Positions 3,151 through 52,630 of a stretch of 64,000 nt of DNA are shown piece by piece; the first letter of the stretch is position 1, and every line of letters begins with the position of its first letter. Below the pieces are notes generated by a model that made no database searches, had not been told where the DNA came from, and worked only from the letters and a program-made list of their open reading frames with translations. The stretch lies in the NCBI GenBank assembly GCA_900114885.1, contig FOUN01000007.1, positions 124,001 to 188,000 of the forward strand, read 5' to 3'. This stretch comes from Psychrobacillus psychrodurans. GTDB taxonomy: Bacteria; Bacillota; Bacilli; Bacillales_A; Planococcaceae. A program made the translations under genes and the position numbers.

Positions 3151-3761
3151 CATTACAAGATAAATGGGATGAACTTGCGGACATAAAAGATGAACTCGCT
3201 GCAAGAGATTGGTTTATGGGAACTAGTGGAAACCTCGCTATTAAAGTACGTGATAATCCTTTGGAGTTTCTAGTAACTGCAAGTGGTAAAGATAAAAAAA
3301 AGAGGACATCGGAAGACTTTTTGCTTGTTGATGCTACTGGAAAACCAGTAGAAAATACTCCTTTAAAACCATCTGCTGAAACATTACTCCATTGTGCAAT
3401 ATATCGAGAAACAAATGCTGCTTGCAGTCTTCACATCCATACAGTTGCAAATAACGTTATATCTGAGTTGTACGGTGATAAAGGTTCAGTAGATTTTCAA
3501 GGCATTGAACTCATTAAAGCTTTTGGTATGTGGGAAGAAGATGCAATACTCTCCATACCAATTATTCCTAACTACGCTCATATTCCCAAACTTGCGGAAG
3601 TGTTTACAACTTATATTTCTGCTGACAAAGGAGTAATCCTTATTCGTAACCATGGTATAACTGTTTGGGGAAAAGATGGGTTTGAGGCAAAAAAATTACT
3701 AGAAGCTTGTGAGTTTTTATTTCAGTATCAATTAGCATTACACCAAATACACTTAAAATAG
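3147..3761 (+). CDS. mtnB: Methylthioribulose-1-phosphate dehydratase
   Basis: Class II aldolase/adducin family enzyme that dehydrates methylthioribulose-1-phosphate. The 204-residue length is usual. [10 protein letters not shown] near residue 26 is the substrate loop; the zinc-binding histidines are in [10 protein letters not shown] and [10 protein letters not shown]. The ATG overlaps the mtnX stop (ATGA), a sign of translational coupling. The position in the mtn operon decides MtnB over other class II aldolases such as fuculose-phosphate aldolase. Confidence 0.93.
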
Positions 3762-3776
3762 AAAGGAAGATTCTTG

Positions 3777-4310
3777 ATGGCTATTATTAAAATCCAAGAA
3801 ACAAGTGAAACAATTGAAGCACAAAACGAGGTAGAAGCATTTTTAGAAAGTCAGGAAGTAATTTATGAACATTGGGATATAGACAAGTTACCAGAAAACC
3901 TTCGTGAAAAATTTAACTTAGACGACGATGAAAAGCAAGAGATTCTAAAAGCTTTCAAAAGTGAAATAGACGACATCTCAACTCGTCGCGGGTACCAGTC
4001 CGCCGATATTATTTCTCTATCTGACTCAAACCCTAACCTAGACGAACTGTTAAAAAATTTCGAACGAAAGCACCTTCATACCGACGATGAAGTTCGTTAT
4101 ATTGTAAGTGGTCACGGTATCTTCATCATACAAGGCAAGGATGAACGCTACTTTGAAGTTCATCTTTCACCTGGTGATTTGATATCTGTGCCCGAGAATA
4201 TTACACACTACTTCACATTATCTGAGGATCGTAAAGTTGTTGCTGTTCGCATTTTTGTAACAACAGAGGGATGGGTTCCAGTTTACCAAGATGAAGTAGT
4301 AGAACAATAA
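3777..4310 (+). CDS. mtnD: Acireductone dioxygenase
   Basis: Cupin enzyme that oxidises the acireductone to 4-methylthio-2-oxobutanoate plus formate (iron form), the last ring of methionine salvage before transamination. The metal-binding motif HLHTDDEVRYIVSG and the later histidine in ITHYFTL are present. A TTG at 3774 is in frame, but the ATG at 3777 lies at good distance from AAAGGAAG and begins the usual MAIIKIQ. It is 15 bases after mtnB and is followed by a terminator. Confidence 0.94.
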   Translation: MAIIKIQETSETIEAQNEVEAFLESQEVIYEHWDIDKLPENLREKFNLDDDEKQEILKAFKSEIDDISTRRGYQSADIISLSDSNPNLDELLKNFERKHLHTDDEVRYIVSGHGIFIIQGKDERYFEVHLSPGDLISVPENITHYFTLSEDRKVVAVRIFVTTEGWVPVYQDEVVEQ

Positions 4311-4391
4311 AAATACCTACTTACCCTAGGAATAAATGAATAACGATAAGGTAGTCAATTACTGCTTCTGCGGCTATTTCTTTCTAAAACA

Positions 4392-4428
4392 AAAAAAGTG
4401 GACTCATTTTATGAATTCCACTTTTTTA
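4392..4428. terminator. Bidirectional terminator between mtnD and the GNAT gene
   Basis: The stem AAAAAGTGGA / TCCACTTTTT has A- and T-runs on both sides, so it can end the mtn operon on the plus strand and the leftward gene on the minus strand. It overlaps the last codons of that gene. Confidence 0.85.
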
Positions 4429-5134
4429 TGTCTATTCGGTAAATTCCTTTTATATCTCGTAATATACATCCATTAGCCTCAAAAATACGTCTCATGGGCT
4501 TGTTATTTGTATCTGTGCTTCCCACATATACCTTCGCACCAAAATTTTTCAAGAGTTCTAATGAAATAGCATGAAATATCGTTCCGTATCCTTTGCATCG
4601 TTGTTCTGGTACAACCCCAAAGTAAAACATTCTTCCCTCATCAGTAGTCCCTTGTTCAATATGTGGAATACTAATACCGTAGTTCATTGCATTTTGAGAA
4701 AAGATAAAGCAATGGTCTCGCCACTTAACACCTATTTCACTTTCAAGTGATTCCATTATTTGATTGATAGTAAATATATTATTTTTGTTAGCTGAACCAC
4801 TCCTACATGAATCGTACAATGTAGCAAAAGCCAAATCAGTCATATGACTATCGGAAAGAGATTGTACTTGAAAGCTACCAGAACTTATAAATGGTCCTTC
4901 CAATGTCTTTGTGTATTCTACAATAGAAGACACTTTTTTAAAATGACGCTTGAAGATCCAGTCCTCATTCTCTTCATCTATTAATAGTGATAAATATGCT
5001 ACTTTTTCTTCTTTCCACTCTGCTAATATTTTATCAAATGCAATTAAGTAATCAATGTTTGGAACATAAGATACTTTTAGTTGATCCACAAGCCAGTATT
5101 CCTGATCTTTTTTAATCAGATTGAAAAGGTTCAC
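4409..5134 (-). CDS. GNAT-family N-acetyltransferase
   Basis: A 241-residue protein whose C-terminal third carries the GNAT acetyl-CoA site: FGVVPEQRCKGYGTIFHAI (the R/QxxGxG/A-type loop) and GSTDTNNKPMRRIFEANGC, typical of motif B. The N-terminal ~110 residues are not recognised and may be a second, degenerate GNAT half. The substrate is unknown. It is transcribed leftward, 24 bases after the lysine-type ABC transporter ATPase gene, so it may be the last gene of that operon. Its 3' end lies inside a bidirectional terminator stem. Confidence 0.8.
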   Translation of the reverse strand: MNLFNLIKKDQEYWLVDQLKVSYVPNIDYLIAFDKILAEWKEEKVAYLSLLIDEENEDWIFKRHFKKVSSIVEYTKTLEGPFISSGSFQVQSLSDSHMTDLAFATLYDSCRSGSANKNNIFTINQIMESLESEIGVKWRDHCFIFSQNAMNYGISIPHIEQGTTDEGRMFYFGVVPEQRCKGYGTIFHAISLELLKNFGAKVYVGSTDTNNKPMRRIFEANGCILRDIKGIYRIDIKKWNS

Positions 5135-7833: not shown

Positions 7834-7894
7834 CTAAATTACTCCCCTTTATTCTTAATGTATGTTCTTACCTATAAAAAAAGACAACTTGTAC

Positions 7895-7922
7895 AAAAAA
7901 AGACCTGAGATGAACTCAGGTC
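7895..7922 (-). terminator. Leader terminator of the lysine riboswitch
   Basis: The perfect stem GACCTGAG / CTCAGGTC with the loop between is followed by a T-run on the minus strand, between the lysine aptamer and the binding-protein start. Confidence 0.9.
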
Positions 7923-7960
7923 GCAATATGTATAGTTGCCCTTAATCCTCTACTTGTCCC

Positions 7961-8143
7961 AAATGAGATAGCACACCATTATAAACAGGGATGTTCATAA
8001 TGGACAGTCCTGCAATTATTAACTGCAGACCCAGCAAGTAATATCGAGAAATATTACAAACTTCGGCGACATTTCCTTCTCCATAGAATCATAGCTTCTC
8101 AAACTCCACTAAGGACTGTTAAATATCGCGCCTCTACCTCACT
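7961..8143 (-). promoter_or_regulatory. Lysine riboswitch (L-box)
   Basis: On the minus strand the leader has the L-box signatures in order: AGTGAGGTAGAGGCGCGA, GGAAATGTCGCCGAAG, CTTGCTGGGTCTGCAG, GGACTGTCCATTATG and GTGCTATCTCATT. P1 forms between AGTGAGGTAG and CTATCTCATT. With the terminator at 7895-7922 it should shut the transporter operon when lysine is abundant. Confidence 0.93.
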
Positions 8144-8587
8144 ATACTAAGTGAGGTCGTATTCAATTATGTTTCATAGTCTACATTAGACATACTTATC
8201 TGTCAACTGACTCTCGAAAAAACTATTTATACGTTGAGATTAATAGCTACATGATCAGATATACCAATTTTAGAGTAAAGATACTGCTAATGATTCTTCT
8301 AAAAAGATTCAAATTGATAAACATTTCCATAGTTGTTATTTACTTATCTGGCGTTCGGATAGGACTATCTAGTTTTGGATTCAATTAATTCCTATGGATA
8401 AACTTATCGGTACTATCCTTCTTGAAACAAGACAAGATTTCTACTGCATAAGAAAAATTAATTTTGGATTGTGGGCTTACGTAATCTATTTGGTAAGTTA
8501 AATCGTCAATAGAGGGATAACCAATTTTTTGAAAGTAGAAGTAATTGTGGAAAATAAACTAAAAAATTATATTATGATTTACATGAA
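8144..8587. other. Intergenic stretch without recognised feature
   Basis: About 440 AT-rich bases upstream of the lysine leader. The CCTCACT/AGTGAGG inverted pair next to 8137-8155 is part of, or adjacent to, the riboswitch P1 region. No gene, RNA or repeat was recognised in the rest. Confidence 0.4.
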
Positions 8588-8633
8588 AAAAGTAATCCAT
8601 TTTTTGAGTTAGCACTCGGGATGGATTACTTTT
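8588..8633. terminator. Bidirectional terminator downstream of yvrJ-like gene
   Basis: The 13-bp perfect stem AAAAGTAATCCAT / ATGGATTACTTTT with a 20-base loop has T-runs on both strands. It lies downstream of the small leftward genes. Confidence 0.8.
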
Positions 8634-8766
8634 CACTTCTGTCATTTTCGTTAAAGAAAATCGTAGGTTCAGAGTGAAAATAAGCTTAACTTCCATTCTT
8701 AAAAAAGAGTTTTTTCTCTAGCAATTTATATAATCAACAGGATATCAGTTTCATCCATGTTACATG

Positions 8767-8931
8767 TTACTTTCTTTTTTCAATGCTATTGTTAACAACA
8801 TTTGCTATATTGTGAATGGTATTTTCTAGAGCGTCTATTTTATTTTCAAATCGATGCAATAAGTAAATAGTGACTACAATGGGAAATCCAAAGTTTCCAA
8901 TTAGTTGTACAATGTTTCCCTCGCCAATCAT
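8767..8931 (-). CDS. YvrJ-family small membrane protein
   Basis: A 54-codon gene starting MIGEGNIVQLIGNFGFPIV and continuing with a single hydrophobic segment (TIYLLH) and an amphipathic, probably coiled C-terminal tail (FENKIDALENTIHNIANVV). The NFGFPIVVT-YLLHRxE pattern is the hallmark of the YvrJ family, whose function is unknown. AAAGGGGG precedes the ATG at good spacing. Related genes are often grouped with other tiny genes; one candidate is at 8949-9050. A terminator follows at 8588. Confidence 0.8.
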   Translation of the reverse strand: MIGEGNIVQLIGNFGFPIVVTIYLLHRFENKIDALENTIHNIANVVNNSIEKRK

Positions 8932-8948
8932 GCGTTATCCCCCTTTCT

Positions 8949-9050
8949 TTAATTTTTACCATTCCTTAAGCGTTGATATACCTGTTGAGTAAACCCCTTC
9001 GAATTGTATTCTAATGAGCTGACTTGTCCGAAAAGAGGAAAATCATCCAT
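8949..9050 (-). CDS. Possible 33-residue peptide upstream of yvrJ-like gene
   Basis: An open frame MDDFPLFGQVSSLEYNSKG... ending 17 bases before the yvrJ-like start, on the same strand. No strong ribosome site is visible (TTGGAATAG is weak). Its position after a plausible AT-rich promoter (TATAAT-like near 9098-9110) suggests it could be the first gene of a two-gene unit, or chance. It is not assigned to any family. Confidence 0.3.
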   Translation of the reverse strand: MDDFPLFGQVSSLEYNSKGFTQQVYQRLRNGKN

Positions 9051-9380
9051 CAGTCTATTCCAAAATCACCTTGGATTTAAATTAATTGATATTTATCATA
9101 TTATACTAAATATTTAGTATTTTTAGAATAACTATAAGTTGGGAAACACGCTCTACTATCTTAGATTATTAATACATATCTAATACTAATTTCTTAATTT
9201 AATGAAATTTTACTATATTTTAATAAAAATTGGATAAGTAAAAATCCTATATTCTACAACTTTCTACTACTTATTATGCTTTTCAACCAAGTATCAGTCG
9301 TTTCAAGTCGAACGATTGAAAAAGGATATTTTGTTTTTTTCAAGAATTAGTACATTACTAATTCATAAGGGGTGAAGAAA

Positions 9381-10685
9381 ATGAGTAGTATAGGTCATAT
9401 AATAAAATCGGAAAGATTAAACCAAAGTATGAAACAAACCACATTGGCCAAGGGAATCTGCTCTACATCCTACTTAAGCAAAATAGAAAATAATTTAACT
9501 ATTCCAAGTGACGAAGTAATAACGTTTTTACTTAAAAAACTAAATATAGAAATAGATCAAGTATCCAGTGAAAAGGAAAATAAAGTTATTGCATCGTTAT
9601 CTGAACTGTACAAAATGGGAGTATTAAAAAGGGACAAAAAATTTATAAGAGAATCCTTGCAAAAATACACTAATAAAAATCAATATTTTTTACAACTAAA
9701 TAATTATTATAATTATCACCTTTATCTATTTCGTCTCCTATTAATACTTGATGATAAGGAGGATAGCCTGCAATCCACCTATAACGTAATTGCAAAAATA
9801 AGAGATGGTATGGACGAGAAACAAAAGTTTATCATTAATCTAAACTTAGGACTTTATAGTTATTTGGATGGAAATTATCAAGAAGCATTAAGTCGATTAG
9901 AGATGTCTTTAAGATTTATAAATAATGGTAAAAATGAAGAATGGGAAATAGCTGATTTTTATAATGTACTAAGCTTAACTTACTCTAAATGCAATGAATT
10001 TTTTAATGCAATAAATTACGCTTCAAAATCATTACTTTTTTATAAAGACAATCTTTTATTTGAAAGAGCAATTGATAATTACATCGTTATAGGAATTGCA
10101 CATAAAGAAATGAGAAAATTTCAAGAAGCAGAAAAGAACTATAATTTAGCGATGAAACTGGCAAAAGATTATAAACTGATTAATTATGAGGAGGTGATTT
10201 ATCAAAATCTAGGTTCATTGCATGCAATTCAGGGGAGCCATGAAAAAGCAATTGAATTTTATAAGCTTAGTTTAAAAATTAAAGAAGAGGATTGTAACGC
10301 TGAAGGTTATTTACTAACAATTCTATCTATTATAAAAGAGTACTCCAAACAGTCTGATCATGAACAGGTCCTCAAATGGTGTAAGAAAGGCTTAAATAAA
10401 ATAGTAGAAGAAAAAACCTCTAGCGAAGAAAATAGTTCTTATTATTTTCACTTACAAATTTATATAAATTACCACAATTTTAATGATGAACTAGAAATTG
10501 TATTAAAGGAAGCTATAAGTTATTTCGAAAAGGAACAGGATGAACGACATGTCCAAAAGTATTCCATTTTACTAGCAGACTACTTTTTTAAACATAATAA
10601 ATTTAAAGCAGCAAGTTTATATTATCAAAAAGCAAATCAGTTTATTTTCAAACAAAAGTTTATTAATAATTGGGAGGATTTATAA
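9381..10685 (+). CDS. RRNPP-type quorum-sensing regulator (HTH + TPR)
   Basis: Cytoplasmic transcriptional regulator of the Rap/Rgg/NprR/PlcR/PrgX type, 434 residues. Residues ~5-60 form a Cro/C1-type helix-turn-helix (IGHIIKSERLNQSMKQTTLA, then STSYLSKIENNLTIPS). The rest is TPR-like: repeats such as ALSRLEMSLRF, AINYASKSLLFYK, AEKNYNLAMKLAKDY, AIEFYKLSLKIKEED and ASLYYQKANQF are visible. The length is close to NprR. An in-frame GTG lies at 9372, but the ATG at 9381 is 8 bases after AAGGGG. One base after its stop comes a gene for a short secreted peptide (10687-10818), the classic regulator-pheromone arrangement. Target genes are not known. Confidence 0.85.
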   Translation: MSSIGHIIKSERLNQSMKQTTLAKGICSTSYLSKIENNLTIPSDEVITFLLKKLNIEIDQVSSEKENKVIASLSELYKMGVLKRDKKFIRESLQKYTNKNQYFLQLNNYYNYHLYLFRLLLILDDKEDSLQSTYNVIAKIRDGMDEKQKFIINLNLGLYSYLDGNYQEALSRLEMSLRFINNGKNEEWEIADFYNVLSLTYSKCNEFFNAINYASKSLLFYKDNLLFERAIDNYIVIGIAHKEMRKFQEAEKNYNLAMKLAKDYKLINYEEVIYQNLGSLHAIQGSHEKAIEFYKLSLKIKEEDCNAEGYLLTILSIIKEYSKQSDHEQVLKWCKKGLNKIVEEKTSSEENSSYYFHLQIYINYHNFNDELEIVLKEAISYFEKEQDERHVQKYSILLADYFFKHNKFKAASLYYQKANQFIFKQKFINNWEDL

Positions 10686-10686
10686 A

Positions 10687-10818
10687 ATGAAAAAAAAGAT
10701 AATATTGTTAACTCTATCAAGTATTGTTGTCCTGTCTTTGAGCTTTACAATAAACACAAAGCAAATAAGTGAAAACGAACTTCCTAGACCTACATCAATA
10801 GGGAATTCATATATTTAA
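10687..10818 (+). CDS. Putative signalling-peptide precursor (pheromone)
   Basis: A 43-residue protein: lysine-rich start MKKKIILLTL, a hydrophobic signal segment to about residue 21, then a short polar tail ending ENELPRPTSIGNSYI. GGGAGG lies 9 bases before the ATG. It begins one base after the TPR regulator's stop, so the two are co-transcribed, as papR with plcR or nprX with nprR. Expected route is Sec export, proteolysis of the tail, re-import by an oligopeptide permease and binding to the TPR domain. Which 5-8 residues of the tail are the mature signal cannot be told from sequence. Confidence 0.75.
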   Translation: MKKKIILLTLSSIVVLSLSFTINTKQISENELPRPTSIGNSYI

Positions 10819-10886
10819 AATTAGCTGCTCGACAAGCTCAAGAGGTCAATTCGTTGGAACTATCCACTCAAGCTAAGCAGAGATTT

Positions 10887-12041: not shown

Positions 12042-13301
12042 TCACCTTCTTAAGTTTTTTGTTGGAATATTAATATTGAAAACAACACCATTTTCAAGAG
12101 ATTCAATTAGTATATTCCCTTCCAATATATGTACAATTTCTTGAGTGTGGGATAGCCCAATACCTGTTGCAGCTACTCCCTGATCATTAAACTTAGTCGT
12201 ATAGCCTGGTTCAAATACAATTGCTTGATCTTCCTGTGAGATACCTTCGCCAGTATCTCGAATAACAAACCATATATTTTGAGACTCCTCATACACATTT
12301 ATATTAATTTCTCCGTTAATTAAAATTGCTTCCACTGCATTCGCAACCACATTATTCAATAATGCCAATAATGGAACTTGCTTCTCTGTTTCAAAATCAA
12401 TTGAAATAGCAGAATGAATGGCAACTTGCTTTTTTAGCAATTCACTATATTTTTCATTGGCATGAATAACAAGTTCGAGTACCTCTGAGAGAAAGTAATA
12501 CTCTCCCCTTTTTGTCTTTGTAATTTTCTCCATTCCCGCCAAAATACGTTGTGAATCCTTTTTCACCTCATGGATTTCCTGTGCAATATGAAGTGCTTGG
12601 ACACTTAAAGAATGATATTCATGTTTTTTTAGCTGACGATATAAATCATAGCTAGATGCAGTAATTTGTTCAATATGATTCATCGATTTCTGTAAATAGA
12701 GTGTTTCTGCGTATAGATTTGAGCCAACCTTCAGCATCTCCCGCATACGCTTGTTATGTTCCATTATTGTAATTGAACTATATAAGCCCACTACAAAATA
12801 GCTTCGAAAAATGGCTACTAACGCGAGTAATACCCATTCTCGAAACTCAAAACTCACATGATTTAATAATAAATAACGAACAAAATACTCCATACTATTC
12901 GCCGTAAACTCGAGTACTGTAGCAATCGCACCAAGTAAAAGAGGTGCAGTTTTAAATCTATCTATCGGTATAACACTTAAACCAACTGCAAATAGAAAAT
13001 AAAACAAAAATGCTGGCAAATGATTTTCGAGAACCCACCAAAAAGGGTTACTAGTAAATAACATATCTTCTCCGATTCGTACTACCACAACAGCAACTCC
13101 TGTTAAAAAACCAGTGAAGATAATCGAAGCTGGTTGAAATATTAACAGAAGAAAGAAAAAAGCAGCACTCCCTAAACCAAAACGGAAATCCTCTCCATTA
13201 AAAGGAATAACTTTAAACTCACTAGCAATTACAGTGATTAAAATTGTTATAATCAGAGCACTCCATTTGTTGGAGGCTAATTGATGTCGCTTAAAAAACA
13301 T
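12042..13301 (-). CDS. GlnK (YcbA)-type sensor histidine kinase
   Basis: 419 residues. The first ~190 form about six membrane segments with an acidic FKVIPFNGEDFRFGLGSA near residue 31, as in YcbA/GlnK-like kinases. The C-terminal ATPase domain shows the N-box LLNNVVANAVEAIL, G1 IRDTGEGIS and G2 GIGLSHTQEIV. The dimerisation segment is non-canonical: it lacks the common HExxxP box, which is usual in this family. It pairs with the downstream YcbB-like regulator. In B. subtilis the pair senses glutamine; here the ligand is unknown and may be glutamate or a dicarboxylate, judging by the symporter remnant. Confidence 0.8.
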   Translation of the reverse strand: MFFKRHQLASNKWSALIITILITVIASEFKVIPFNGEDFRFGLGSAAFFFLLLIFQPASIIFTGFLTGVAVVVVRIGEDMLFTSNPFWWVLENHLPAFLFYFLFAVGLSVIPIDRFKTAPLLLGAIATVLEFTANSMEYFVRYLLLNHVSFEFREWVLLALVAIFRSYFVVGLYSSITIMEHNKRMREMLKVGSNLYAETLYLQKSMNHIEQITASSYDLYRQLKKHEYHSLSVQALHIAQEIHEVKKDSQRILAGMEKITKTKRGEYYFLSEVLELVIHANEKYSELLKKQVAIHSAISIDFETEKQVPLLALLNNVVANAVEAILINGEININVYEESQNIWFVIRDTGEGISQEDQAIVFEPGYTTKFNDQGVAATGIGLSHTQEIVHILEGNILIESLENGVVFNINIPTKNLRR

Positions 13302-14254: not shown

Positions 14255-14743
14255 TTAAAACCTCTTATTTTTAACCTTCTGCTCATGCTGAAGTAACCAT
14301 TCTTTTCTCCAAAGTCCTCCGGCATAGCCTGTTAACTTTCCATTTGTCCCAATTATTCGATGACAAGGTACTACTATAGTTAACTTGTTCCTACCATTTG
14401 CACTTCCTACCGCACGTATAGCTTTTTCATTTCCTATTGAAATCGCAATATCTTTATAAGACCCAGTTTTGGCATAGGAGATACTTTTTAGAGCATTCCA
14501 TACAGATTTTTGGAATATTGTCCCATTCATTACATAAGGAAAGGTAAATTCATGAAGCTCCCCTTTAAAGTACTCATCTATTTGAACTAGACAATCCTTT
14601 AGGACTTGAGGAGTCTCCTCCTGCACCTTATTTTCCATTTCTTCTCTTTCTACAAACAGAATAGAACTTATGGCTTGATCTGTCCCTATTATCTCTAAAA
14701 TTCCAATTGGTGACTTGTAGTCTAGTGTATATAATTTATCCAT
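14255..14743 (-). CDS. ogt: Methylated-DNA--protein-cysteine methyltransferase
   Basis: Suicide repair protein that moves the methyl group of O6-methylguanine to its own cysteine. The active site VPCHRIIG and the preceding AVGSANGRN (helix-turn-helix and Asn hinge) are intact, as is the C-terminal GYAGGLWRKEWLL. 162 residues is the usual length. Its start overlaps the end of the upstream Ada-type activator by 8 bases, so the pair forms an adaptive-response operon like adaA-adaB of B. subtilis. Confidence 0.92.
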   Translation of the reverse strand: MDKLYTLDYKSPIGILEIIGTDQAISSILFVEREEMENKVQEETPQVLKDCLVQIDEYFKGELHEFTFPYVMNGTIFQKSVWNALKSISYAKTGSYKDIAISIGNEKAIRAVGSANGRNKLTIVVPCHRIIGTNGKLTGYAGGLWRKEWLLQHEQKVKNKRF

Positions 14744-45852: not shown

Positions 45853-46060
45853 AGTATGACCCCATTTCATACAGGGAATATATTAACAATATTAGCACTT
45901 ACCTCTCTATTTCACCATATATACTGGAATAACTCTAAAGGAATCCTTATCACGATCTCCAATCTATCTCATGGTGTAAAAAAAACTTTCCTAGCTGTAC
46001 TAGAATAAGCTCTATGGATTCCACATATAAAATGGCATTGGCATCTTATCATTCACTAAT

Positions 46061-46082
46061 TTACTTATGAGACGGTTCACTG
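46061..46082 (-). repeat. rlmH-end repeat (att-like), copy 6, outermost
   Basis: The minus strand reads GTGAACCGTCTCATAAGTAA, 18 of 20 bases as the end of rlmH (GTGAACCGTACCATAAGTAA). It has the same orientation as the other copies and bounds the gltS segment. The surrounding gap 45853-46215 holds no other gene that I can support. Confidence 0.7.
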
Positions 46083-46215
46083 CTACTAATACTTATCATA
46101 TAGAAGGTGTTGATAGGTGTGCGAGAAGTGTATTTAGTGGATATAAAAAATACTGTTGACGTAAGGATTCTCTCTTTTGGAAGAAAACTTTTTTCTTCCT
46201 CAGTCTTATCTATAC

Positions 46216-46258
46216 AAAAAAGCTTCTAGCCGATAGACAAGGACTAGAAGCTTTTTTT
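46216..46258. terminator. Terminator after gltS
   Basis: The 14-bp stem AAAAAAGCTTCTAG / CTAGAAGCTTTTTT has T-runs on both strands and follows the leftward gltS gene. Confidence 0.9.
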
Positions 46259-46302
46259 ATTAAATCAGAAATAGTTAATCTGAAAACAGTCATTTCAATA
46301 AA

Positions 46303-47487
46303 TCACTTGAACAAGTTAATGGTCGTGATAATGATTGGTGCGCTAAATACAACATCGATCAGGAATGCACCAACAATTGGCACGACTAGGAAAGCCGTAC
46401 GAGAAGGACCATACTTGCTCACGGTCGCGGACATGTTCGCCATTGCGTTCGGTGTTGCTCCCAGCCCGTGGCCTAAGAATCCCGAGATCATAACAGCTGC
46501 ATCGTAATCCTTGCCAAGCAATGGAAACATCACAAAGAGGGCATACAAGACGACGACGATAACCTGGATGAGTATAATGCCGATGAGTGGTAGTGCGAGA
46601 TCTGCTACTTCCCATAGCTTGATGCTCATCAGTGCCATCGAGAGAAAAATCGCAAGCGAAACATCACCGATTAAGTTGATCTCCTTCATGTTCACCGTGC
46701 CCTTTATAAAGTGATCGGCAAGATTCCTGACCATGACCGCCACGAACATCGCCCCGATATAGGACGGTAGGACGAAGCCGGTCACATTCGTAAACAAATC
46801 ACCTAGATACGTTCCCACTGCCATCGAGAACGTGATGAGGGCAACCTGAACCATGAATGACCACTCTTGAATCGGTCTCTCATCTTTCTCTACATACCCT
46901 TCTATTTTACCTGTTGCTGGCTTCAAGTCATGTTTTTTAATCAGGTACCGTGCAACTGGGCCACCAGAAAGGCTACCGCAAATCAGTCCAAGTGTAGCGG
47001 CGGCCATCCCAATTGTTAAAGCTGAGGAAATGCCCAAGTCCTCAATCGTCTGTCCATATGCCGCAGCACCGCCATGTCCTCCGTTCATTGAAACTGCTCC
47101 AGCCATGACACCTAATAGTGGGTCAATTCCAAACAATCCGGCAAACGAAACGCCGATTACGTTCTGCAAGAACACCGTAACTCCACACAAGAGTAAGTAG
47201 ATGACTAAGAGTTTCCCACCCAGTTTGATGAGCTTGAAGCTTGCCCCAAGGCCGACCGTCGTAAAGAAGGCGATCATAAACAGCGTCTGTAGCGATGTAT
47301 CCAAGGAAACCTCGACTATCCCCGTAGTTTTCAACACGAGCGCTAAAGTAGCGAATATCAAACCGCCGACGACAGGAGCAGGGATTAGAAACCGGTTAAG
47401 TAATCCGATGCGGTTGACAAGTGCCATTCCAAACAAATAGAGAGCTACTGCAAGGAACAAAGTTGTAATTTGATTGAGTTCGATCAT
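46303..47487 (-). CDS. gltS: Sodium/glutamate symporter GltS
   Basis: 394-residue ESS-family carrier with about ten to twelve hydrophobic segments and the two inverted re-entrant loops: AGAVSMNGGHGGAAAYGQ in the first half and GFLGHGLGATPNAMANM in the second. AAAGGTGAAG precedes the ATG. The G+C content is clearly higher than in neighbouring genes by eye, which suggests recent transfer. It lies between two copies of the rlmH-end repeat (46061 and 48178). Confidence 0.92.
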   Translation of the reverse strand: MIELNQITTLFLAVALYLFGMALVNRIGLLNRFLIPAPVVGGLIFATLALVLKTTGIVEVSLDTSLQTLFMIAFFTTVGLGASFKLIKLGGKLLVIYLLLCGVTVFLQNVIGVSFAGLFGIDPLLGVMAGAVSMNGGHGGAAAYGQTIEDLGISSALTIGMAAATLGLICGSLSGGPVARYLIKKHDLKPATGKIEGYVEKDERPIQEWSFMVQVALITFSMAVGTYLGDLFTNVTGFVLPSYIGAMFVAVMVRNLADHFIKGTVNMKEINLIGDVSLAIFLSMALMSIKLWEVADLALPLIGIILIQVIVVVLYALFVMFPLLGKDYDAAVMISGFLGHGLGATPNAMANMSATVSKYGPSRTAFLVVPIVGAFLIDVVFSAPIIITTINLFK

Positions 47488-47501
47488 ATATCTTCACCTT
47501 T

Positions 47502-47741
47502 CTAAAAAGCCTTTACCGCTCCATTGATGAAGTTCCCCCAGCCGAACCGTTCAGCCGTTATCATCAATATCTTAGTTAACTTTGGATATGTTAAAGCTTG
47601 TCGTTTTGTCATTTTCGCATATGTGCTGAATGAACGCAGCCAGCTAATCACTGCATAATTCGAATTTCGTTTCCTCTCGAACACATATGTGACACCGAGC
47701 CCATCTGCACGGTAAAAATGCTTTGACGAGTTGCAATCGTC
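47502..47741 (-). pseudogene. Possible 3' remnant of a gene upstream of gltS
   Basis: A frame open from a stop at 47742 to 47502 encodes ADGLGVTYVFERKRNSNYAV and a basic C-terminal part ending WGNFINGAVKAF, just before the gltS ribosome site. It has only a GTG at 47684 and no ribosome site, and shares the higher G+C of gltS. I do not recognise the family. It looks like the tail of a truncated gene that was once co-transcribed with gltS. The rest of the gap (47743-48111) is AT-rich and empty. Confidence 0.4.
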
Positions 47742-48111
47742 TCACTGTAGATTTACTACTTATCCAAAGACTGCAACTCTTTCCTTACACAAAAGACTCA
47801 ACCTAAACTAATGCCGATATACAAGGACCATCCTTATACTCCAACAATAAATCCTAGTATTAGCACGGTAAAAATTTAATATGCCTTAGTAAATTTTAAT
47901 TTTTTCATCAACAATAAGTTTCCCTCTACACTTGGTAGCGCTTTCACGCGTAGGAGGTAGCTTTATATTAGTATTTTACAGGATACTTATCGAATCCTAC
48001 AAAATCCGACATATACAGTAGTATATTTAAAAAAATCGATAAATTTTGTTCATTTAGGCTTCTCTATATTTTTCTTTTGCTTCAGCATTGTTCGATTTGA
48101 CAATTGCATAA

Positions 48112-48169
48112 TATAAAGGAGACCACCTGGAACGTTGTTATACCAACGTTCCAGGTGGTCTCCTTTATA
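48112..48169. repeat. 26-bp perfect hairpin, copy of the rlmH terminator
   Basis: Two perfect 26-base arms with a six-base loop. The inner part GACCACCTGGAACGTTG matches ACCACCTAGAACGTTG of the hairpin after rlmH (52553-52592), and the flank (GCGGTTTATAAAGG versus GCGGTTAATAAAGG) also matches. It lies directly next to the rlmH-end repeat at 48178, in the same relative order as at rlmH. Confidence 0.85.
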
Positions 48170-48177
48170 AACCGCAC

Positions 48178-48199
48178 TTTCTTATGATAAGGTTTTTGA
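48178..48199 (-). repeat. rlmH-end repeat (att-like), copy 5
   Basis: The minus strand reads ACCTTATCATAAGAAAGTGC followed by GGTTTATAAAGG. It is the most diverged copy in the GGTGAACCG half, but keeps CATAAG and the rlmH downstream flank with its terminator hairpin. The TTATCATAAG core is like the staphylococcal SCC site. Confidence 0.65.
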
Positions 48200-48258
48200 C
48201 ACATCATGAAATAAAAATCGTCTAATAAGCAGAGACCTATATAGGAGGATCAAAATTA

Positions 48259-48783
48259 ATGCAAAACGAAAGAGAGATTATTTCCAATTGGTTTTTTCTC
48301 TATAGCCAAGATGTTTTCAATTTTTTAGTTTACTATTCAGGAACTCGTGATGTAGAAGATCTCGTACAAGAAGTGTTTATTAAGGCAGCTAAAGGTATGA
48401 GCACCTACCGAAACCATGCGACGCCCAAAACTTGGCTCTTTAGCATTGCCCGTAATCTAGCCATCGACAAAGCGAGAAAGAACAAAACGAAGATCAGTCG
48501 AACGAATGTGGCTTTCCATGAGGAAACTTTGGATCAGCACATCGGATTTTCTCCTGAGCAAATTCTGATAGGCCATGAGGAGAAACAAGAATTGTACAGT
48601 AGGATCAATCAGCAAAAAAAGAAATATCGGGATGTGCTAATTTTAAGGGGCATTCAAGGATTGTCCGTGAGTGAAACAGCACAAATACTAGGATGCAAAG
48701 AAACCGCAGTTCGAACCAACTATCATCGTGCAGTCAAGGCATTACAAAATGAACCGAATTGGAGGGAATCTCATGAAGGATAA
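48259..48783 (+). CDS. ECF sigma factor
   Basis: 174-residue extracytoplasmic-function sigma-70 factor. Region 2 reads VYYSGTRDVEDLVQEVFIKA and TPKTWLFSIARNLAIDKARK; region 4 reads YRDVLILRGIQGLSVSETAQ then ILGCKETAVRTNYHRAVKAL. TAGGAGG lies before the ATG. It overlaps the downstream anti-sigma candidate by 11 bases. The pair fills one segment between two rlmH-end repeats, so it may be an acquired regulatory unit. Confidence 0.9.
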   Translation: MQNEREIISNWFFLYSQDVFNFLVYYSGTRDVEDLVQEVFIKAAKGMSTYRNHATPKTWLFSIARNLAIDKARKNKTKISRTNVAFHEETLDQHIGFSPEQILIGHEEKQELYSRINQQKKKYRDVLILRGIQGLSVSETAQILGCKETAVRTNYHRAVKALQNEPNWRESHEG

Positions 48784-49600
48784 TCTAAAAAATGTCCAGG
48801 AGAAATTAAACGAATTTCCGTCATATCACATGAGCCAGTCTACTCAAGCTCTCCTCCATCAACAAGTGATGGACACCATCGAAGATTCTGAAATCCGACA
48901 AAAACGAAAAGGAGTGTTTCTCATTAAAGCCAAAGTAGGGATTCTTACGGCAGCTGCTGTCATAATAATTAGTATTCTAACCGTAAATCTATTAAATGAT
49001 AATCCAAACTCATCCAGTGGAGAGAATCCTATACCCATTAATCAGGACGTTGACCAAGAAATCGAACAGACGCCTGGCGAAGAAGAGGACAACAATTTGT
49101 ATGATCCCCTCCTGCTCGAGCAACAAGCTACAGAGATTCTTCAAGCGATCTATGACCATGATATGGATGTACTATCCAGTCATGTACACACAGAGAAAGG
49201 TTTACTGTTTTCCCCTTATTTTTCTGTGATGGACGATACAGTAAGATTTGAAAAGAATGAGGTACCATCACTATTAGAAAGTGAGGCAACGTATTTGTGG
49301 GGCTATGGAGAAGCGAACATGGAAATACAATTGACGCCAGCGGACTATTTCGACAAGCATCTTCAAGTAAAGCGATTCTTTAAATCGGATGAAGTCTTTG
49401 TCGATACACAAAATCTAGAAGTGGACCCTACCAATTATTTAAAAACGGTTTTTCCTGATTCAAAAATTGTTGAGTTTTATCATGCTGGTACCGAACAATA
49501 TAGTGGAATGGATTGGAGAAGTCTCAACCTGGTTTTCGAACAAGATGAAGAAGGTGCGTGGCGTCTAGTGGCAATAATCAACAATCTCTTTACTCCTTAA
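48773..49600 (+). CDS. Probable membrane-bound anti-sigma factor
   Basis: 275 residues: a cytoplasmic N-terminus of ~55, one membrane segment (GILTAAAVIIISILTVNLL, ~60-78), an acidic linker (QEIEQTPGEEEDNN) and an extracellular domain of ~170 residues. This is the layout of ECF anti-sigma factors (RsiX/RsiV type), though no ZAS His-Cys motif is present. ATG at 48773 follows GGAGGGAATCTC, within the sigma gene's end. The sensed signal is unknown. Confidence 0.75.
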   Translation: MKDNLKNVQEKLNEFPSYHMSQSTQALLHQQVMDTIEDSEIRQKRKGVFLIKAKVGILTAAAVIIISILTVNLLNDNPNSSSGENPIPINQDVDQEIEQTPGEEEDNNLYDPLLLEQQATEILQAIYDHDMDVLSSHVHTEKGLLFSPYFSVMDDTVRFEKNEVPSLLESEATYLWGYGEANMEIQLTPADYFDKHLQVKRFFKSDEVFVDTQNLEVDPTNYLKTVFPDSKIVEFYHAGTEQYSGMDWRSLNLVFEQDEEGAWRLVAIINNLFTP

Positions 49601-49665
49601 CCGTGCTTATGCAAATTAGATATCTGCTTTAGGGGTTTTTTAACATCAAAAGTAAAACAAGAAAC

Positions 49666-49703
49666 AAGCCATCAGACTAGGAACAGTACTAGTTCGATGG
49701 CTT
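49666..49703. terminator. Terminator after the sigma/anti-sigma pair
   Basis: The stem AAGCCATC-GACTAG / CTAGTTC-GATGGCTT with an eight-base loop, followed by AATTTGT. A second T-run (GGGGTTTTTT at 49632-49641) is nearer the stop. Confidence 0.65.
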
Positions 49704-49718
49704 AATTTGTATTTATTT

Positions 49719-49740
49719 TTATTTATGGTACGGTTCACCT
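49719..49740 (-). repeat. rlmH-end repeat (att-like), copy 4
   Basis: The minus strand reads GGTGAACCGTACCATAAATA, 19 of 20 bases as the end of rlmH. It encodes the same GEPYHK codons but lies in no gene. Confidence 0.85.
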
Positions 49741-49814
49741 CATCATATTAACTAGGAATTTTCATAACCGAAACTTTTTCCATTATTTTACGTAGTAAGA
49801 GAAAGGGAGTGGCT

Positions 49815-50270
49815 ATGGTGCGAAAAATTATATTAAGCGTAATCATGATACCTATTTTGTTTCTAACTTATTATTTGGTGGAACAATATCACCTTAGTGA
49901 AACATCGAAAATTCTGGAAGATTTTCAATTTGTAACGCCGGAACGTCTCAATTCATTGTCGATTGTGCAATATCCGGAAAAACGAGTATATACAAGCTTT
50001 CATGATGATGAAGTACAACAAATGCTAAAGACGTTTAATAAATTAGATTTAAAGAAAACGAAGCGTTTATCAATGAGTGAAAATTATACGAAAATAAGAT
50101 TTATGGAGGACGGCTTGCAATATTGTATTGAATATCATTTATATGACAATGGTTTTATAAAATATGTAGAAGATGGGTTAGCTGGTGGTAAGAACATCAC
50201 TTATAAAATGGAAGAAGAAAAATTAAATACAATCCTTGCCTCATTATTGATGGGAAAAACATTAGAGTAA
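49815..50270 (+). CDS. Membrane-anchored protein of unknown function
   Basis: 151 residues. One N-terminal membrane segment (IILSVIMIPILFLTYYLV) and an extracellular domain of about 130 residues without recognised motifs (KTFNKLDLKKTKRLSMSENY, CIEYHLYDNGFIKYVEDG). ATG at 49815 after AAAGGGAG. It is the only gene of a 0.65-kb segment between rlmH-end repeats 49719 and 50372. Confidence 0.7.
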   Translation: MVRKIILSVIMIPILFLTYYLVEQYHLSETSKILEDFQFVTPERLNSLSIVQYPEKRVYTSFHDDEVQQMLKTFNKLDLKKTKRLSMSENYTKIRFMEDGLQYCIEYHLYDNGFIKYVEDGLAGGKNITYKMEEEKLNTILASLLMGKTLE

Positions 50271-50311
50271 GAAAAAATAAGCCTACTTGCAACAAATGTT
50301 TACTAAACGAA

Positions 50312-50347
50312 AACAGCACCTTCCATTTATTTTGGAGTGGTGCTGTT
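50312..50347 (+). terminator. Terminator after 49815-50270
   Basis: The stem AACAGCACC / GGTGCTGTT with CCA/TGG inside, followed by a T-rich tail. Confidence 0.8.
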
Positions 50348-50371
50348 GCTATTTTTCAAAAAAAACCGCAC

Positions 50372-50393
50372 TTACTTATGATACGGCTCACCC
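50372..50393 (-). repeat. rlmH-end repeat (att-like), copy 3
   Basis: The minus strand reads GGTGAGCCGTATCATAAGTA followed by AGTGCGGTT. It agrees with the rlmH end and flank at about 26 of 30 positions. The flank AACCGCACTTA forms an inverted repeat with TAAGTGCGGTT at 50403-50414. Confidence 0.85.
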
Positions 50394-50420
50394 TGATGTG
50401 GCTAAGTGCGGTTTGAAAAT

Positions 50421-51293
50421 TTATTTTGAATCCATAAATTTTACTCTTACTAAAGGTGTATTATTTTCATAAACTATATTCCATCTATCTAATAAGCGTC
50501 TATTAAATGCTTCTGGCGTTTTACTTAAAAACAATAATTTAAAGAGTTCTGTTAAATCAAGAATATGTAATAGACCTAAGTTTTCCGCTCCAAACTTCAT
50601 GATATCTTGATAAAGCTTATCCCAATCTAGTTCATGACGCATTTCTGAAATTAAAACTATACAATGTTTGGGTACATTATTATTCAATGTTAGATTAATT
50701 AAATCATTTTCTGAAGTATAAACTTTTTTACTTTAAATTTATTGATTTTATAGCCCCCCTTAATTGTTTTATTGCTTTTTCTATATTATTATGTATTTTT
50801 TATAAGCCTGTCTGAACTCAATTCTTTTTTCCTATTCAACACCTGTGAAACTTTGGACTCAATAATAACTAAATGATTCTCTTTAAATGCTAATATATCA
50901 GTTAATTCTCTCATTTTATTTTTTTCAATCTGAGGAGAATGGTGACAAGTTTCATGATAATACGAATTCAATAATGAATGAATAGATAATTCTAAGCCTA
51001 GCCCTTCATCCAACTGTGACAATTTAGTTTCTCCTACACTAATATCAATAACTTTTGTAGGTTCGTTAGGAGTAAATTTTAGTTTAATAATAATTAATTC
51101 TATAGGGAGTTTTGTATTACCAGAAAAAAATTCCTCCATATATTTAATAAATCTATTCTCAGTCTCTATTTTTTCTTTATCATTAATGTCCGTATTTATA
51201 GAGGAAAATAATTTCAAAAATCTCTTGGAAAAAAAGGCCACTATTCTCATTAATCATTTTCTCTTGCATGTCAAACGTAGGTATATATATCAT
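50421..51293 (-). pseudogene. Decayed gene with a PD-(D/E)xK nuclease-like core
   Basis: Three or more minus-strand frames join into one protein of about 290 residues. The ATG at 51293 has a good ribosome site (AAAAGGTGATAACT) and encodes MIYIPTFDMQEKMINENSGL. After a T-run the frame moves to INDKEKIETENRFIKYMEEF... and includes RELTDILAFKENHLVIIESK, a D...ExK pattern like PD-(D/E)xK nucleases. After another shift at an A-run it continues NIEKAIKQLRGAIKSINLK, and after a third, VYTSENDLINLTLNNNVPKH to the stop at 50421. The nuclease idea rests on the motif only. Confidence 0.65.
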
Positions 51294-51336
51294 AGTTATC
51301 ACCTTTTAAATTATTTTAGAAATCACAAAATCTCAC

Positions 51337-51358
51337 TTACTTATAATACTGTTCTCCC
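51337..51358 (-). repeat. rlmH-end repeat (att-like), copy 2
   Basis: The minus strand reads GGGAGAACAGTATTATAAGT then AAGTGAGATT. It agrees with the rlmH end and flank at about 22 of 30 positions, including ATAAGTAA. Confidence 0.7.
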
Positions 51359-51387
51359 ACTATAGTATGGTAGTTTAAAATAAGATA

Positions 51388-52260
51388 TTATGAATAAATT
51401 GCAATTGGAATTACTAATATAGCAGGGTTGGATATTCTTGAAATTATATTTGGAATTTCTAATTGTTCATCCATTCCGGTATTCATTGAACCAAAAAGTG
51501 TATCTAGAGCTTCTTGTTGAAATAGCTTAAATGCTGTATTTCTAAATAAATTTATGCTATCTGAATCATCAGTTACAACTTTAACTACTTTTCCAAAAAC
51601 TGTGTAGTTCCCATCAATAATTTCATTTGTATTCTTGTGAATAAAATAATTTAAATATACTGGTAGCACAGCTTTTAGACTCTCATTCGCATTAATTGAA
51701 CAGATTAAATCAAAATTATCATTTTCTGTTAAACTACCTTTCATACTTTTTATTTGCTTTAATATTTCTTGTTCGTTACTCTTTTTTCCACCTTTTTGTG
51801 GTGACTGAAACGCCATTGCTACAACCATCATTTGCTCAAAAGATTCCAAAAGGGAAATTAATGGATTTCTCTCTAGTTTACTCTCGAATCTTACAAAGCT
51901 ACCATGTGATAATTTATCTAAATCACTTATATTATTTACTTCTATAATTAGCTCTTTTTCTTCTAGATAGGAGAATAATTTTGCAAATAATGATGTGGGC
52001 GTATGAACTCTTTCCTCATTAGAACTTTTTTCTTCTGTTGTACTTTTCTCTATGCCCATAGCAGCCTTTATCTTAGTTTTAATTCCATACATTCCAAATC
52101 CAGCTTCACCGTCTACATTACTATTTGTATTTTTTCCTTCTATATTAGAAATGTTTAAATTGGTAACTTTGGAAAACCCATCTTCAATTACGGCTAATAA
52201 ATCAAAAACAACATTTTGAATTAAATAAGTTGTAACTGGAAACACACTTCTAGTACGCAT
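51388..52260 (-). CDS. Orphan 290-residue protein of unknown function
   Basis: Soluble protein without signal peptide or membrane segment. It starts MRTRSVFPVTTYLIQNVVFD and ends RISNPAILVIPIAIYS; in between a polar linker (KSTTEEKSSNEERVHTPT), VRFESKLERNPLISLLESFE and YTVFGKVVKVVTDDSDSINL. The pattern of a mid-protein GKV-V strand and a C-terminal PA-VIPIAIY resembles a family that I recall as DUF6414, but I cannot confirm this. AAGGAGAGA precedes the ATG. It sits in the rlmH-proximal cassette with a YjzC-like gene on the other strand. Confidence 0.7.
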   Translation of the reverse strand: MRTRSVFPVTTYLIQNVVFDLLAVIEDGFSKVTNLNISNIEGKNTNSNVDGEAGFGMYGIKTKIKAAMGIEKSTTEEKSSNEERVHTPTSLFAKLFSYLEEKELIIEVNNISDLDKLSHGSFVRFESKLERNPLISLLESFEQMMVVAMAFQSPQKGGKKSNEQEILKQIKSMKGSLTENDNFDLICSINANESLKAVLPVYLNYFIHKNTNEIIDGNYTVFGKVVKVVTDDSDSINLFRNTAFKLFQQEALDTLFGSMNTGMDEQLEIPNIISRISNPAILVIPIAIYS

Positions 52261-52374
52261 CTAATCTCTCCTTAAATAAAATTCATTATAAGTAACAAAC
52301 TTCAGTTATACTTTTGTATTCTTCAATTTAATTATAACAAAATATGGTAAAGTATAAATATTGGAGGTGATAAA

Positions 52375-52539
52375 ATGAGTGACTTAAAAAAACCAGGAAT
52401 GGATAATCAACCACCAGGAAAATATAAAGAAGTAGGTCCAAGAGGTGGTGAAGTACCTAAACCTCGAACTATTGAAATTGATAGAGGAGACCGACTTCCT
52501 CCAACACAAGAAAAAGGACGTAAATGGGAGAAACAATAA
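52375..52539 (+). CDS. YjzC-like small protein
   Basis: 54 codons: MSDLKKPGMDNQPPGKYKEV, GPRGGEVPKPRTIEIDRGDR and the C-terminal LPPTQEKGRKWEKQ. The pattern 'KPG...PGxYxEVG...G...P..I....GDxxPPT...GRxW' is that of YjzC-type small proteins. Ribosome site TTGGAGGTGATAAA is excellent. It is divergent from the 290-residue gene and convergent with rlmH. Function unknown. Confidence 0.75.
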   Translation: MSDLKKPGMDNQPPGKYKEVGPRGGEVPKPRTIEIDRGDRLPPTQEKGRKWEKQ

Positions 52540-52552
52540 TAAATAAAATTTA

Positions 52553-52592
52553 AACCACCTAAAACGCTGATAAATCAACGTTCTAGGTGGTT
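52553..52592. terminator. rlmH terminator hairpin (proximal copy)
   Basis: Arms AACCACCTA.AACG.TGA and TCAACGTTCTAGGTGGTT form an 18-bp near-perfect stem right after rlmH. The same hairpin in a cleaner form lies at 48112-48169. Confidence 0.8.
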
Positions 52593-52608
52593 CCTTTATT
52601 AACCGCCT

Positions 52609-52630
52609 TTACTTATGGTACGGTTCACCC
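52609..52630 (-). repeat. rlmH 3' end, reference copy of the att-like repeat
   Basis: The last codons and stop of rlmH, GGGTGAACCGTACCATAAGT plus AA. In staphylococci the homologous end (CTTATCATAAGTAA) is the SCC attachment site. Five similar sequences follow to the left in the same orientation. Confidence 0.85.

Follow-up and report, generated by a model that had tools for sequence, protein, structure and literature searches.

A probable array of serially inserted, recombinase-free gene cassettes at the 3' end of rlmH in Psychrobacillus psychrodurans

How do unrelated genes come to stand in a row downstream of rlmH, each set off by a copy of the last bases of that gene, when no enzyme for their insertion is encoded among them? 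The question is raised by positions 46061 to 52630 of a 64,000-nucleotide stretch of the genome of the soil bacterium Psychrobacillus psychrodurans (Planococcaceae; assembly GCA_900114885.1, contig FOUN01000007.1, positions 124,001 to 188,000), the whole of which is called the window here. An initial annotation had proposed five serial cassettes, similar to nested staphylococcal cassette chromosome (SCC) insertions without the recombinase gene ccr. Insertion breakpoints fall within the repeat, cassettes recur from one genus to another, attachment (att) sites are shared and arrays are formed; the interval probably arose by successive site-specific insertions at the rlmH 3' end, with a Ccr-type recombinase acting in trans. 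The serial array with breakpoints in its repeats stands, and the count is revised: the window appears to hold four cassettes and one half-site (48178), with partial decay of the outer part.

Copies of the rlmH end and the cassettes between them

The last bases of rlmH are repeated at 51337, 50372, 49719, 48178 and 46061, all downstream of rlmH and in its orientation, exactly where the initial annotation had placed them. When the 22-mer TTTACTTATGGTACGGTTCACC was searched with up to three mismatches, four matches were obtained in the window (46060, 49718, 50371 and 52608, the rlmH end included), with 0.00 expected from 100 shuffles. The whole 4.0-Mb genome yielded these four and one on contig C37, and the pattern read backwards, used as a control, gave no match in the same genome. 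Copies 51337 and 48178 are not among the 22-mer matches and were found with a matrix of 29 positions built from the rlmH ends of 19 Psychrobacillus genomes, the window's own included. In 400 kb of simulated sequence (one strand) the matrix gave no site scoring at least 12; because it was built from rlmH ends, it misses sites that have diverged strongly. A chance origin of the copies was ruled out by the shuffles, the simulated sequence, the reversed pattern, and the upstream and opposite-strand controls reported below. An explanation by tRNA or structured RNA was also rejected, the window having no tRNA and the array no Rfam family at gathering thresholds. In this genome the repeats are concentrated at rlmH and do not form a genome-wide element; scattered copies occur in some other genomes. 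Contig C37 carries, away from rlmH (L049, 3523-3543), an att-like site with a score of 25.8, and a weaker inverted site (score 15.3) lies ~1 kb off at about 4575 in L049 with two overlapping frames between them, possibly a cassette at a secondary site.

The closest relative, G014, whose rlmH protein is 98.7% identical to that of the window, does not have the 2237-bp cassette 1. There, the rlmH end is joined straight to the sequence that follows the 50372 copy in the window, with 97.8% identity between window offsets +2215 to +4416 and G014 offsets -22 to +2176. From this junction and alignment it follows that the 2237 bp at rlmH are a repeat-bounded insertion (or were lost in G014). G014 in turn carries an extra cassette (+2514 to +4359), between the sigma factor cassette and gltS, that the window does not have; it is 95.9% identical over 1786 bp to a unit of Paenisporosarcina sp. 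HGH0030 (rlmH, 77.2%), and a 151-bp stretch just past its first site is 97% identical to the rlmH-adjacent DNA of that strain. Relative to G014, the last 338 bp of the sigma factor cassette (cassette 3) are missing from the window as well. The absence of both pieces would explain why the 48178 copy keeps one half, and a deletion seems to have reduced this copy to a half-site. Cassettes 1 and 2 have the core of the rlmH-end direct repeat at both ends, the half-site is common to cassettes 3 and 4, and cassette 1 alone keeps two good sites. Empty and differently filled sites in relatives, with breakpoints inside the repeats, thus support the SCC-like insertion at the rlmH end that had been proposed.

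Cassette 1 was also detected in another genus. The DNA of window positions 50394-52608 matches G111 (genus g13) at 84-88%; in that genome, the unit comprises 2569 bp between two att sites, about 9 kb downstream of rlmH, and the homology ends inside the repeat core at both cassette ends. The third gene of the cassette is an intact 401-aa frame in G111, and the window copy is broken, with its frame interrupted and ~320 bases missing. The 51337 copy falls within the unit shared with G111 and is not kept as a site there, has TATTATAA in place of the core TATCATAA and pairs at two of 11 arm positions. For these reasons it is not taken as a boundary, and four cassettes are counted. Wang et al., as cited in PMC6222049, found that a change of the C of TATCATAA, and of no other base, led to complete loss of CcrAB function; the 51337 copy lacks this C. 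A plasmid or phage origin of cassette 1 was considered and rejected, as its DNA gave no match in PLSDB (blastn) and its DUF6414 protein none in INPHARED (tblastn).

The genes between the copies are unrelated, as had been noticed at the outset: gltS, a gene for an extracytoplasmic function (ECF)-type sigma factor and its partner, an orphan, a broken gene, and genes for DUF6414 and YjzC proteins were found (Table 1). With one to three genes each, the cassettes measure 0.65-2.2 kb. The start of the partner gene overlaps the sigma factor gene, and the 275-aa product gave no family above its cut-off.

Table 1. Features of the rlmH region in the window (positions are those of the window)
Feature	Position	Strand	Remarks
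rlmH, 159 aa	52609..53088	(-)	PF02590 SPOUT_MTase, E=7e-59; 3' end is the attachment site
att at rlmH end, attL of cassette 1	52601..52628	(-)	matrix score 42.0
Cassette 1, 2237 bp	50372..52608		YjzC-like, DUF6414, broken third gene
YjzC-like small protein, cassette 1	52375..52539	(+)	PF14168, E=7e-14
DUF6414 protein, 290 aa, cassette 1	51388..52260	(-)	PF19952, E=5e-37
att-like copy 51337	51329..51356	(-)	core TATTATAA, dyad 2/11, score 26.1; inside cassette 1
Broken gene, cassette 1	50421..51250	(-)	two open stretches, 88 and 153 aa
att copy 50372, attR of cassette 1	50364..50414	(-)	score 42.5; full dyad, 11/11 arm positions paired
Cassette 2, 653 bp	49719..50371		single orphan gene; 96.8% identical in G014
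Orphan gene, cassette 2	49809-50270	(+)	no Pfam match
att copy 49719	49711..49738	(-)	core TACCATAA, score 23.2, weak dyad 5/11
Cassette 3, 1541 bp	48178..49718		ECF-type sigma factor and partner protein; 1861 bp in G014; distal end apparently truncated
Partner protein, 275 aa, cassette 3	48773..49600	(+)	putative anti-sigma, by position only
ECF-like sigma factor, 174 aa, cassette 3	48259..48783	(+)	PF04542, E=3e-15; PF08281, E=1e-12
Half att site 48178	48170..48197	(-)	score 27.6; gltS-side half intact, other half apparently lost vs G014
Cassette 4, 2117 bp	46061..48177		holds gltS
gltS, cassette 4	46303-47487	(-)	PF03616
Outermost att copy 46061	46053..46080	(-)	core TCTCATAA, score 24.0, weak dyad 4/11

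Sites and shared cassettes across the family

Matrix scans covered 80 named rlmH loci (Psychrobacillus, Paenisporosarcina, Sporosarcina, Lysinibacillus, Planococcus, Viridibacillus, Ureibacillus, Solibacillus and others). Besides the rlmH ends, 65 sites score at least 20, all of them downstream and in the orientation of rlmH; at the same score, no inverted site was found downstream (715 kb) and none on either strand upstream (770 kb). At least one extra site occurs in 42 of the 80 loci and in 41 of the 71 that have at least 5 kb downstream. A few inverted sites score between 12 and 20, several of them 34 bp from a good site, as expected for dyad arms. Within Psychrobacillus, 11 of 19 genomes have at least one extra site, in stretches of up to 14 kb (only 2.2 kb in G007). 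A degenerate 26-mer with at most one mismatch is present in 170 of 261 family genomes, rlmH ends counted, and its reversed version was seen 0 times among the matches listed. The array, which the initial annotation expected to be notable in Planococcaceae, is real and at the same time one case of a family-wide pattern, and SCC-like islands have already been described in print.

Further analysis made use of a set of 103 loci, consisting of 19 from Psychrobacillus, 71 named loci and 13 chosen for carrying ccr; one assembly is in it twice (L131, G236), and nine named loci were left out as their assemblies were judged to be included already. In 49 of 107 distal copies, the left arm pairs with the right arm of the site at eight or more of 11 positions, a degree of pairing seen in none of the 103 rlmH ends and in 0-3 of 107 copies in eight controls with slid arms. 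The TATCATAA core is the same as that of SCC and Enterococcus cassette chromosome (ECC) elements. When a flank with at least 80% identity over at least 80 bp was counted as shared, 41 site pairs share the flank right of the core only and 11 the left flank only; neither these 52 pairs nor the 50 cassette pairs below are independent. To the left of about -16, right-shared pairs are no more alike than unrelated sites, and from -7 onwards to the right they clearly exceed that level; left-shared pairs mostly exceed it up to about -13 and drop at -10. Both profiles together place the exchange in the core, at about -17 to -10. Reading the exact crossover from the window and G014 alone was rejected, since that pair gives +2 to +7 and the 52-pair profile about -17 to -10.

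Some sites were met away from the rlmH loci. Whole-genome searches returned 8-11 att-pattern matches each in G036, G094, G149 and G150; those of G036 and G094 are dispersed along the chromosome, some as pairs with 3-5 kb between them, a pattern suggestive of cassettes at secondary sites. In L146 (G012:C1:1140000-1158000; 8576 and 9442), an rlmH-like frame of distant similarity (37% identity, residues 60-159) ends in an att-like site, and an inverted att-like site lies ~870 bp away. Degenerate rlmH fragments with stops (59-60% identity, residues 87-157) lie off the rlmH locus at G005:C5:111308-111517 and G013:C4:122185-122394.

Cassettes recur in different neighbourhoods. A 2188-bp cassette with one gene, for a sensor kinase, is present in Lysinibacillus xylanilyticus SR-86 (L090, at 0), in Solibacillus palustris (L137, at 356) and in G069 (at 12967). 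The copy of L137 is 97.3-97.7% identical to the other two (rlmH, 77.6-78.3%), which are 99.5% identical to each other (rlmH, 93.0%). Similarly, a 3-kb cassette of G005 and G008, both Psychrobacillus, is 98.8% identical (rlmH, 79.4%). Altogether, 50 cassette pairs have at least 75% of the shorter unit aligned. In G007 the gltS unit (cassette 4) is next to rlmH, in G005 one cassette comes between the two and in G014 three do; in three genomes of genus g17 (G180, G222 and G206) it lies 5-21 kb downstream of rlmH, and in G004 and G016 it is on a contig other than that of rlmH.

Of the 103 loci, 60 contain att-to-att intervals, 107 in all, with a median length of 2380 bp. A serine recombinase match was obtained in 12 of the intervals, in two cases by truncated frames only (154 aa in L119 and 119 aa in L128); in L089 and L092 the recombinase frame overlaps the rlmH-side site, so that it is missed by the interval test. 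The 93 intervals without recombinase have a median of 2141 bp; 88 are shorter than 5 kb, 68 measure 1-5 kb, and 73 contain one to three frames of at least 90 aa. The cargo looks diverse and ordinary: at E<=1e-5, a total of 89 Pfam families are matched by the largest proteins of 79 intervals shorter than 5.2 kb, and the commonest of these proteins are GAF/HisKA sensor kinases, in nine of the 79. An enrichment in defence genes was rejected, as among 25 of 36 PADLOC families listed, one was matched by two of the 79 proteins and the others by one. Examples of GAF-HisKA kinase cassettes are found in L090 (10610-12625), L099 (11465-13513) and L086 (10572-12644), and the matches of the L099 kinase include sporulation kinase KinD, below its cut-off. 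A 1584-bp one-gene cassette in L048 (G003), with its frame at 3578-4642, encodes an RlmN-type rRNA methyltransferase (404 bits, with a cut-off of 290) that remains under the Cfr cut-offs.

Supply of the recombinase and weighing of the explanations

No ccr was seen in the interval from rlmH to 46061, among either open reading frames or Pfam families, and with NF047343 (CcrB) at E<=1e-60 none was found in any of the 19 Psychrobacillus genomes, that of the window included, as the initial annotation had led us to expect for the segments themselves. The possibility of an own ccr elsewhere in the window's genome was discarded: both PF07508 matches are short (258 and 236 aa), the first reaches 100.7 bits to CcrB compared with the cut-off of 900, and both stand beside frames that we take to be IS110-type transposases. 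Long serine recombinase genes of five Psychrobacillus genomes (G004, G005, G009, G016 and G018) are on contigs other than that of rlmH. In a region of G004 without rlmH (L139, G004:C1:505001-525000), a pair of large serine recombinase genes occupies 7866-10842, and two att-like sites nearby, at 14587 and 17305, bound a single 824-aa frame.

The search of relatives for Ccr proteins that had been recommended gave CcrB-like proteins (NF047343, E<=1e-60) in 26 of the 261 family genomes. In 25 of the 26 the best match is on the rlmH contig, downstream of rlmH and no more than about 31 kb away; the exception is G032, where it is on a different contig, and some genomes have further matches elsewhere. 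The four Ccr-like proteins tested all score 409-454 bits to CcrB, over nearly full length, and 324-350 to CcrC. In nine of 13 rlmH-linked regions (G047, G054, G060, G069, G070, G071, G084, G085 and G098), a Ccr-like gene of 550-578 aa is flanked by the rlmH site and by another site 9.4-34.8 kb from it; G083 and G162 have no second site within the stretch covered, and the recombinase of G052 and of G236 adjoins the distal site. DUF927 (PF06048) and the Cch helix-turn-helix domain (PF18662) were recognised in three of three proteins tested near ccr. Beside the Ccr-like gene of the four helper elements for which frames were tabulated, there is no second frame of recombinase size, no CcrA model having been used for searching. 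In G060 and G069, small recombinase-free cassettes with like sites follow directly behind the Ccr-bearing element.

A mechanism can be proposed in which each cassette would be a DNA circle with one att site that a Ccr-type large serine recombinase would join to the site at the rlmH end. The newest cassette would then adjoin rlmH and older ones would be pushed outward, each set off by a copy of the rlmH end. As the cassettes hold one to three ordinary genes and no recombinase, they would depend on a recombinase in trans, presumably supplied by SCC-type elements of related genera that use the same site and carry a Cch helicase and one CcrB/C-like recombinase.

Several observations weigh against this explanation. 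No helper is present in the 19 Psychrobacillus genomes, one per species, so that for Psychrobacillus itself we can only infer movement in trans; the 409-454 bits of the CcrB-like proteins compare with a curated NCBIfam cut-off of 900 bits, which was exceeded in none of the 261 genomes. The dyad is complete at only one of the five window copies (50372), the other four pairing at 2-5 of 11 positions, and 58 of the 107 distal copies have fewer than eight of 11 arm positions paired. Six of the 50 cassette pairs show no greater identity than their rlmH genes. The left-shared profile draws on few data, six of its 11 pairs coming from one cassette family, and to the right of the core it still exceeds the unrelated level in places. 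Finally, the junctions between window and G014 and between G005 and G008 fall at about -1 to +7, right of the family-wide switch; a second event, or gene conversion, may have obscured their original position.

The decay in the window, with its truncated cassette 3, half-site and broken gene, would also suit a relic of larger composite SCC-type islands from which ccr and other genes were later deleted (pseudo-SCC), the small cassettes never having moved alone. Truncated Ccr-like frames in the intervals of L119 and L128 point in the same direction, some intervals look fused (0-4729 of L082 contains the 2.1-kb unit of L086), and composite and pseudo-SCC are described in staphylococci in the available parts of PMC3637587 and PMC10061031. 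In contrast, the 2188-bp unit recurs with the same two ends across neighbourhoods and genera (L090, L137 and G069), and we consider a relic unlikely.

It appears quite improbable that the cassettes are moved by an enzyme other than the helpers' Ccr, such as a tyrosine recombinase or the second class of serine integrases that target rlmH in Lysinibacillus, Ureibacillus and Planococcus. In L089, L092, L096, L106, L118 and L138, CcrB-like genes of a second class do abut rlmH convergently, from about 10415-10452, and form pairs in L096 and L106. Their frame overlaps the rlmH 3' end, and the flank after the stop codon is GTAATGG, AGGCAAAAA or ACACATAG; this speaks against their acting on the present cassettes, whose usual flank is GTGCGGTTT/ATGAGGTTT. 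A XerC/D-like gene was found beside ccr in both of two elements tested, whereas G071 has no XerC/D-like frame between cch and ccr. Local duplication or slippage of the rlmH end and its terminator, suggested by a terminator-like hairpin that some copies share beside the rlmH end, is virtually excluded by the unrelated genes between the copies, by dyad arms on distal copies only and by near-identical cassettes that end in the core in different genera.

Relation to cassette chromosomes and biological meaning

SCC elements have sizes of tens of kb. The window cassettes, in comparison, contain no ccr, comprise 0.65-2.2 kb with one to three genes and belong to another host family. Insertion at the rlmH 3' end, direct repeats, the TATCATAA core and tandem composites are common to the array and to SCC and SCCmec (PMC6222049, PMC10061031); inverted-repeat arms, a further feature of SCC, are fully paired at one window copy (50372) and pair at 2-5 of 11 positions at the other four. 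Since the array would work like SCC and has no ccr, it is kept apart from SCC proper. ECC elements share the target, the TATCATAA core and the attR dyad; they have inverted repeats in attR and attECC, as many of the distal copies have here, and multiple attR in 16 of 32 elements, but they are 21-78 kb long and are identified by ccrAB (PMC6222049). In the composite of Staphylococcus haemolyticus WCH1, ccr-less remnants likewise lie between orfX/rlmH repeats; that case differs in being one 40-kb region with five IS431 and an internal repeat, and no recurring single-gene units are described in the part available (PMC3637587). The PolA-SSB-primase SCC-like islands of Bacillota, mostly downstream of rlmH and with large serine recombinases and tandem composites, differ in carrying recombinase and replication genes, and the available part of PMC10061031 does not mention arrays of small recombinase-free cassettes. 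Its island table includes Planococcus antarcticus, predicted empty sites were found for three islands, and further genera are listed in PMC10581047. Thus, SCC-like islands and tandem composites at rlmH outside staphylococci are already in print (PMC10061031, PMC6222049), and what appears to be new here is the one-gene, integron-like scale. Among the titles and abstract openings listed, a weak test as subscription literature is mostly outside it, none describes arrays of one-gene cassettes without a recombinase at rlmH in this family.

Integron gene cassettes are similar in that single genes are stacked at one site by an enzyme from elsewhere, the newest next to the anchor; the difference is that a serine recombinase and rlmH-end sites would be used here, not IntI, attI and attC. 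A broader reading, which we offer tentatively and would not yet call probable, is that the rlmH end in Caryophanaceae/Planococcaceae may be an integron-like exchange platform, where a Ccr-type recombinase would move recombinase-free mini-cassettes across genera, single genes for sensor kinases, transporters, chemoreceptors and sigma factors would circulate, and SCC would be the helper-bearing form.

It was SCCmec that made methicillin-resistant Staphylococcus aureus (MRSA). To our knowledge, the origin of cassette chromosomes and the way in which they pick up genes are unsettled. At the spot that the resistance island of MRSA also uses, the rlmH end seems to serve as a common slot for exchanging single genes that carry no insertion enzyme of their own. 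With sites at 42 of 80 loci and ends kept across genera, this largely environmental family offers a simple, testable system for the birth of cassettes, for gene capture and for movement in trans, and the site pattern predicts the contents of cassettes from sequence alone.

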